Assembly: GCA_944320765.1 (NCBI GenBank)
Contig: CALUIS010000002.1
Span: forward strand, 62,001-126,000
Source of the DNA: an uncultured Paraprevotella sp.
Lineage (GTDB): Bacteria > Bacteroidota > Bacteroidia > Bacteroidales > Bacteroidaceae
Length of the DNA stretch: 64,000 nucleotides
Direction: 5' to 3'
A program made the translations under genes and the position numbers. Every line of letters starts with the position of its first letter. Position 1 is the first letter of the stretch. Of this stretch, positions 8,525 through 33,292 are shown piece by piece. Below the pieces are notes generated by a model. The model saw only the letters and a program-made list of their open reading frames with translations, was not told where the DNA came from and made no database searches.

Positions 8525-8823
8525 GGCTTGAAGCTTTATGCCGTATGGGTTGCAAAAATACGGGTTTTTATCGTAATGGGGAATATAAGATGCAATTTAT
8601 CGCGCCCTTCACGCGTCAATGCCATTTGCGTGTAAGGGGCATGGGCCGGAAATGTCGGCGGTCGTGAACTACGGGGTGGCGTTGGCAAAGATTTCATTGA
8701 AAGCTTTCCGCCGCCCCGGTGGCGGAATGTCGCCGAATCGCGGCGTTTTCTGTCAAAAAGATAGTTTTTCGCTCCTGCCAGCGTTTCCGTGGCAGGCCGG
8801 GCGGACGCAGATAATGCCCGAAC
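8525..8823. other. intergenic stretch upstream of repeat copy 1
   Basis: I see no gene here. The last ~110 bases (from about 8715) resemble, with gaps, the DNA to the left of repeat copy 2 (from about 32640). The repeat may therefore have a weaker, more diverged left extension. Confidence 0.35.
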
Positions 8824-9265
8824 TGTTAAAATGTGGGCGGGAGAAATGTCCTATACGAGCATTTCTCCGCTACGGAGGGCGTTTCCGTGCGGCAAAAACG
8901 GGATTTCTTTGCTGAAAGAAATTTCTTTCTTGCCGCAAAGACGGAAATTTCTTGCCGCAAAGAAATTTTCGGGAGTGTGGAAAGCGGGGAAAAACGGGGC
9001 TTCGGGCGGATTTTTTCTTCTGGTTGGAGACTTTTCGCGTGCAAAATCCAATTGTCCTTTTGCAAGCCTTTCCCCTCACGGGCTGACGCGGGGAAGGCGG
9101 CCGTCCGCACGGCGTCCCGTGGCGGACGGCAAAGTGTCGCGGGAATCCGGCTTCCGGCTTTCATCCTGCATTTCCGGAACCGTGCGAGAATCGCGCATTC
9201 CCGTCAGTTCCCGTCCTTGCGCCCGTCCGCGCGATTCTCGCGGGGGCGGTTCTGACGTTTTGACA
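8824..9265 (+). repeat. 442-bp dispersed structured repeat, copy 1
   Basis: This element matches 32749-33190 over exactly 442 bases with no gap at a constant offset of 23,925. By eye identity is about 82-84% overall, and 58 of 60 bases match at 8941-9000. It is bounded by TGTTAAAA (8824-8831) and TTTTGACA (9258-9265), an imperfect terminal inverted repeat. Internal hairpins include GGAGAAATG/CATTTCTCC (near 8840-8869), TTTCTTT-gctg-AAAGAAA (8904-8921), AAATTTCTT/AAGAAATTT (8945-8968) and a 13-base pair of arms at 9184-9196 and 9229-9241. No recognisable protein is encoded. It may be a MITE-like element or a family of structured RNAs. Confidence 0.85.
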
Positions 9266-9280
9266 GGATTCAAAACGTCA
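9253..9280. terminator. 11-bp inverted repeat at the end of the MBL gene
   Basis: TGACGTTTTGA (9253-9263) and TCAAAACGTCA (9270-9280) form a perfect stem with a 6-base loop. The right arm overlaps the stop codon of the minus-strand MBL gene and the left arm overlaps the end of repeat copy 1. No long T-run follows on either strand, so a terminator role is only tentative. Confidence 0.35.
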
Positions 9281-32597: not shown

Positions 32598-32748
32598 ATA
32601 GGGGCGCAGAGCTTCCACGGGGCGGAAGCTCCTGCCGCGCCAGTGCCGGAATGTAGCCAAAGCCCGGGAAATGCTGCCAAAAAGTTAGGAATTCCGCCCT
32701 GTTCCGCTCCGGTATGATGGGCCGGTAGGGAGAAAATAGACCCCGAAG

Positions 32749-33190
32749 TGTTAAAAAGAGGGCGGGAGAACTGCTCGTATGGAGCATTTCTCCGCCGCAG
32801 TATCCGTTTTTGTGCGGTGAAAATGGGATTTCTTTGCTGAAAGAAATTTTTTTCTTGCCGCAAAGACGCGAATTTCTTGCCGCAAAGAAATTTTCGGGAG
32901 TGTGGAAAGCGGGGAAAAACGGGGCTTCGGACGGCTTTTTCCTTCTGGTTGGGGACTTTCCGCGTGCAAAATCCGACTGCTTTTTTGCAAGCCTTTCCCC
33001 TTACGGGCTGACGCGGGGGCGGCATCCGTCCGCACGGCGTCCCGTGGCGGGCGGCAAAGTGTCGCGGAAACCCGTTTTCCGGCTTTCATCCTGCATTCCT
33101 GAATGCCCGCGGGGTTTGCGTATTTTCGTCCGCCCCCGTCCTTGCGTCCTTTTTCGCGCTTCTCGCGGGGCCGGTTTTGACGTTTTGACA
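32749..33190 (+). repeat. 442-bp dispersed structured repeat, copy 2
   Basis: This is the second copy of the 8824-9265 element, same orientation and same length without gaps. Ends are TGTTAAAA (32749-32756) and TTTTGACA (33183-33190). The hairpin TTTCTTT-gctg-AAAGAAA (32829-32846) and its neighbour (32871 onward) are unchanged. The first hairpin has a rewritten loop: here TGCTC and GAGCA extend the stem. It lies between the GH30 terminator and tRNA-Cys. DNA from about 32640 to 32748 shows weaker, gapped likeness to the left flank of copy 1. Nothing else is seen between 32598 and 33292. Confidence 0.85.
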
Positions 33191-33292
33191 AAATGACATT
33201 CCGGATTTTCCGCCGTCCTCCAGGCATTGGGGAGGCCGGAGGACGGCGGGGGATGACGATGTCTCGGGAAGGCGGGCGTGGGGACTGCCTAC

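Follow-up and report, generated by a model that had tools for sequence, protein, structure and literature searches.

Bacterial MITEs are usually viewed as sequences that decay freely. ISL3 insertion sequences generate 8-bp target duplications. The repeat family described here is nearest by descent to the MITEs of ISL3 insertion sequences, and nearest by general kind to the BrickBuilt and QMITE elements. ISL3-family MITEs of the ISAon1 group are non-coding, carry the inverted repeats of ISL3/ISAon1 insertion sequences, are flanked by 8-bp duplications and occupy dozens of intergenic sites, and the same is true of our family in one Paraprevotella genome, G011. In contrast, most copies in the genome that yielded the locus under study (G000) lack the transposon ends, yet their 560-bp core is still full length and fixed in spacing at up to 50% divergence.

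The BrickBuilt MITE of Porphyromonas gingivalis, another member of Bacteroidales, contains internal repeats and is always located between genes (PMC4596501). As described, its interior is made of tandem 23-bp repeats (PMC4596501), whereas the Paraprevotella interior is unique, hairpin-rich sequence of fixed length. The conserved QMITE1 and QMITE2 elements of Coxiella burnetii have about 50 copies per genome, QMITE2 carries a REP palindrome, and the authors propose that they are adaptive (PMC5896051). QMITEs span 150-400 bp, have other direct repeats and are in some cases transcribed as sRNAs (PMC5896051), whereas the Paraprevotella unit is about 560 bp long. There is also a likeness to REP and BIME sequences, because the core carries nested hairpins with a TTGCCGCAAAG loop of a type that also forms a separate dispersed family in G011. 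However, this hairpin cassette accounts for just 80 bp or so of the 560-bp unit. Mobilization by a RAYT/REP system was rejected because the RAYT-type transposase domain PF01797 was found in neither G000 nor G011 (G012 has one match).

The window analyzed is a stretch of 64,000 nucleotides from contig C2 of G000 (Paraprevotella; 2.93 Mb, 48 contigs), wherein a window position equals the contig position minus 62000. In line with a preliminary description of this DNA, two 442-bp copies at 8824-9265 (locus L001) and 32749-33190 (locus L008) align without gaps, 23,925 positions apart throughout, and agree at 372 of 442 positions (84.2%). Both copies are indeed intergenic, and their differences are clustered as that description stated, being rarest at 8904-9003 and densest over the right third and within the first hairpin. 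Flanking identity between the pair is only 0.3-0.4 to the right of the 442 bp and 0.5-0.3 to their left. In the alignment of all copies, conservation runs from near -110 to about 10 bp beyond TTTTGACA, which defines a unit of about 560 bp. The two sequences originally taken for the ends, TGTTAAAA and TTTTGACA, are an internal box and the edge of the conserved core, respectively, and neither is an end of the element. An nhmmer profile of 579 positions places the core of copy 1 at 8717-9276 on the plus strand (L001:1394-1953), extending the original segment leftward, and that of copy 2 at 32640-33212, also on the plus strand (L008:1392-1964; BLAST match C2:94749-95190).

The core of copy 1 has a left boundary box whose TGTC, read in the sequence and present in the consensus of copies, occupies 8728-8731 (plus strand). 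In several old copies this box is the palindrome TGACA-NNN-TGTC. A near-invariant internal motif, the TGTTAAAA box, follows at 8824-8831 (plus), and then a left hairpin, GCGGGAGAAATG...CATTTCTCCGC, at 8837-8870 (plus; helix 9 of alignment A1). The REP-like cassette at 8890-8969, to which no strand is assigned, comprises the nested hairpins AATTTCTTTGCTGAAAGAAATT and AATTTCTTGCCGCAAAGAAATT (helices 11 and 12), and the GGGGCTTCGG box lies beyond it at 8996-9005 (plus). A right hairpin, GCGAGAATCGCG...CGCGATTCTCGC, spans 9184-9241 (likewise without strand), and its right arm is more conserved than its left. The right boundary array, which reads TTCTGACGTTTTGACA in copy 1 and TTTTGACGTTTTGACA in the consensus, consists of TGACA boxes with an 8-bp period at 9250-9265 (plus), and conservation among G000 copies ends sharply there. 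The corresponding features of copy 2, both on the plus strand, are the TGTTAAAA box at 32749-32756 and the TTTTGACGTTTTGACA array at 33175-33190. In three other G000 copies (L011, L018 and L034), a palindrome, TAGAGACGCGATTAATCGCGTCTNTACAT, has replaced the stretch that immediately precedes the TGTTAAAA box and extends into it. We also considered TGACA-NNN-TGTCA as a general host site, and rejected this idea because the box is not enriched in the window.

Rather than being present twice, as was initially thought, the element has about 60 copies in G000, of which 40 near ones are found by BLAST, and a 115-bp core profile gives 61 matches. Nearly all full-length BLAST copies have lengths of 442 ± 2 bp and identities of 73-87%. 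Extending the search to related genomes, as the preliminary description had proposed, revealed about 40 copies in G011, an uncultured Paraprevotella MAG that is a congener of G000 (about 38 by BLAST, 41 by profile). Between one and five profile matches each are present in P. clara YIT 11840 (G001), G007, G010, G012, G013 and G017. A larger search of 201 genomes from 30 genera of the family, made with the same 115-bp profile and stricter filters, gave no core match outside Paraprevotella. Spread by plasmids or viruses was rejected, since neither the plasmid collection nor the viral contigs contained a match. A coding gene was rejected as well, because even the most widely shared reading frame is open in at most 31 of 82 copies and one-base indels occur. 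The copies in G000 are mostly or all between genes, and trees of the copies are star-like. One core in G012 (L042) is 93.6% identical to one in G011 (L127) over 1509 bp including the flanks, even though the species are otherwise more distant, and this might reflect horizontal transfer. Further CTTGCCGCAAAG sites in G011 were rejected as extra copies, as they belong mostly to a separate REP-like repeat. This dispersed palindrome family, GTACTYTGCGGMRAGTACTCGAGTACTTGCCGCAAAGTAC, occupies dozens of sites in G011 (L110-L126, L128 and L129) and has its TTGCCGCAAAG loop in common with the cassette.

In G011, the core is embedded in an element of about 749 bp (738-760 bp in most copies), with inverted repeats at fixed offsets. 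These terminal repeats, CAGTAGAAATTCAGTGGGG...CCCCAYTGGATTTCTACTG, are preceded by GGCT and followed by AGCC. Flanking 8-bp target duplications match at 7-8 of 8 bases in 12 of 23 copies, which none of 2000 permutations equaled, and the signal is confined to the 8-bp register. An insertion sequence in the same genome (L131) has the same end as the element and encodes an ISL3 transposase (PF01610, 3e-52; NCBIfam ISAon1, 6e-159). Given the shared inverted repeats and the 8-bp duplications, the G011 element is a MITE of the ISL3/ISAon1 type. Thus, the initial impression that the sequence matches no family holds for Rfam and for the plasmid collection, but not for the ends, which match those of an ISL3/ISAon1-type insertion sequence. 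Three MITEs of about 360-400 bp in G012 (L132, L133 and L134) have the same ends and an unrelated interior, and would make a natural neutral control.

G000 has at least 12 occurrences of the ISL3-type end, most of them where a contig terminates. At the ends of C2 (L032) and C20 (L105), an ISL3-type insertion sequence apparently lies inside the right end of a single core where the assembly breaks, and the two contig ends may join. Among the core copies, the left repeat is recognizable at a fixed offset of about -35 in roughly 13 of 37, with 19 of 19 bases in L017 and 14-17 of 19 in L005, L007, L010, L011, L021 and L023. It is decayed beyond recognition in the window copies, where copy 1 matches at 9 of 19 bases and copy 2 at 11 of 19; the expected left terminal repeat of the latter, at 32604-32622 on the plus strand (offset -35 in L008), is decayed at best. 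The right arm is recognizable in only 2-5 of the 37 copies, being clear in L021 and L039 and weak in L020, L027 and window copy 2, and L021 retains it in full, in decayed form (z 6.1). Pairwise identity among G000 copies drops from 0.84 to 0.33 immediately past TTTTGACGTTTTGACAAAATG, whereas among G011 copies it stays at 0.63-0.80 up to the end of the element. Several G000 copies are directly abutted by the next gene. Because no target duplication exceeds permutation levels at any offset around the G000 core borders, including those of the window copies, we infer the MITE route in this genome from the left-end relics, the structure itself being observed in G011. Copies with left-end relics would once have needed a right end to transpose, which suggests that their right arms were lost after insertion.

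The core behaves quite differently from the arms. Copies in G000 differ by 1.8 indel events per 125 substitutions, and copies that are 45-51% diverged (L042 and L048 versus L005 and L060) differ by 4-6 indel events per 250-285 substitutions, each of one base apart from one 22-bp insert. In an additional set of 18 old G000 copies, 16 are matched over 480 or more bases of the profile, and almost all stop no more than a few bases from the common right boundary. Spacing measured without any alignment is similarly strict, with 172 bp from TGTTAAAA to GGGGCTTCGG in 53 of 59 copies and 19 bp from GCGATTCTCGC to the TGACA array in 55 of 59. Most variable sites in the core are transitions. Linkage between variable sites does not extend past 5 bp, which is the pattern predicted for saturated free sites interspersed with fixed ones. 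These features of the sequence strongly indicate that the core of about 560 bp is under strong constraint, with indel rates gauged within the family rather than against neutral MITEs. We do not take rate heterogeneity among sites by itself (156 invariant columns versus 11) as proof of selection, since a coalescent with gene conversion also yields many. In the one clear orthologous pair (L029/L041), the core is 78% identical, which is no better than the adjoining 130 bp (0.71-0.85). Gene conversion between copies could slow their divergence, but as the main cause it is countered by old copies at 50-65% identity and by variable sites that are unlinked past 5 bp. Of the two possibilities raised in the preliminary description, a precise mobile unit and structural selection, each is borne out in part: mobility is evident in the sister species G011 from the inverted repeats and 8-bp duplications, and the indications that the core is constrained are strong.

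Covariation in the predicted secondary structure was compared with shuffled and slid controls. In the whole fold, 55 pairs have changed on both sides, compared with 35.0 (sd 4.2) after shuffling and 39-57 for slid structures, and 84.5% of cells are paired versus 41-49% in slid structures. The signal is carried mainly by the left hairpin (helix 9), where both partners have changed in 7 of 11 pairs and pairing stands at 88%, with stem variants such as GGCTGAG/CTCAGCC in L037 and GTCCGGAG/CTCCGGAC in L104. Mutual-information covariation was discarded as too noisy. In every subset, folding is somewhat better for the plus strand than for the minus strand. However, when stems are picked without strand preference, G-T and A-C cells are nearly on a par (696 and 668), though they number 487 and 360 in a more diverged set. 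The pairing may therefore serve at the DNA level, and a strand-specific RNA is not clearly supported. The covariation behind the earlier view that stems are kept is real, if modest, but lacks a clear strand asymmetry that would point to their being kept as RNA. Rfam covariance models identified no family near its gathering threshold for the element, and their only match in the window is one tRNA. In a highly diverged copy in G011 (L097, at G011:C20:53100-53600), AGTACT takes the place of AAATTTCTT in the cassette stems, the loop being the same. This copy lies in the opposite orientation downstream of the gene that also precedes window copy 2 (32604-33212), and the two distances from the gene are close (about 121 and 123 bp). 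The two might be independent insertions at one spot, or the spot might be a hot spot.

The surroundings of the copies offer few clues to function. By rough gene calls, neighboring genes are convergent in 24 cases, co-directional in 17 and 17, and divergent in 10, which is a mild convergent excess, and copy strands are mixed within contigs. No neighbor gene, including any recombinase gene, recurs beside the copies. The lack of a shared neighbor and the mildness of the convergent excess mean that no specific cis role is indicated. A riboswitch or promoter element was rejected because orientation relative to genes is mixed and neighbor families do not recur.

Three other explanations deserve consideration. 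In the first, mobility would reside in the core itself: TGACA-type boxes would delimit it, and some recombinase that leaves no target duplication would move it. The ISL3 ends in G011 would then reflect later capture of one core between inverted repeats, and conservation would reflect the needs of mobility rather than a host function. The TGACA/TGTCA boxes at both ends, the right boundary shared within a few bases by nearly all of the 18 additional old copies, and the absence of target duplications at any offset in G000 are all compatible with this proposal. We nevertheless consider it rather unlikely, because about 13 G000 copies carry ISL3-end relics at a fixed offset outside the core and parts of the right arm persist in L021 and L039 (weakly in L020 and L027). 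In addition, conservation at the right end fades across 10-45 bp without a single-base stop, and no recombinase gene accompanies the copies.

The prospect of an ordinary, functionless MITE family, too young to have decayed and homogenized in its interior by gene conversion, is poorer still. The MITE structure in G011 and the star-like trees fit this explanation, and gene conversion is strongest in the interior of repeats. However, full length is retained at up to 50% divergence, variable sites more than 5 bp apart are unlinked, and similarity at the right boundary has the shape of a cliff, marked at its edge by a highly conserved motif, rather than of a dome. We hold a comparably low opinion of a large structured non-coding RNA borne by the MITE, in which every core would be transcribed into an RNA acting in trans or in cis. 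The 55 pairs changed on both sides (versus 35 after shuffling) and the better folding of the plus strand in every subset speak for such an RNA, and Coxiella MITE copies do yield sRNAs (PMC5896051). Against it are the near equality of G-T and A-C cells overall, though less so in the more diverged set, the lack of an Rfam match, a spacing that is unusually strict for RNA loops, and the redundancy of about 60 copies.

We therefore lean toward an origin as a MITE mobilized by ISL3-type machinery, with later loss of the arms and retention by selection of a core that acts as a local DNA site. On this view, the MITE family would have expanded in waves within Paraprevotella, with an ISL3-type transposase (ISAon1 group) supplying mobility in trans, as the shared ends suggest, and the window copies would be old members of it. 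After insertion, the transposon arms would decay or be deleted, and the core of about 560 bp would be retained copy by copy through purifying selection, a step that is strongly indicated. About 60 redundant copies would not each be kept for the sake of a trans-acting product, which favors a local role in DNA, and the core is probably a cis-acting DNA site with hairpins. Our best guess is that it works as a fixed-length nucleoprotein or hairpin site. This putative site, bounded by TGACA-type boxes and equipped with REP-like hairpins, might serve as a boundary, a terminator or a chromosome-organizing site between genes. As judged from sequence features, a unit of this size, its spacing constant almost to the base, that is kept at about 60 copies per genome after end loss might be, on a more tentative reading, either a class of domesticated cis-acting chromosomal sites that a MITE has dispersed or a mobile element in its own right, bounded by TGACA boxes.

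What makes the family unusual is that a long, spacing-locked core survives the loss of its mobile ends, with almost no indels across dozens of copies at up to about 50% divergence. If confirmed, the family would offer a clear example, in bacteria and in a genus of the human gut, of a conserved non-coding site carried across a whole chromosome by a transposon.
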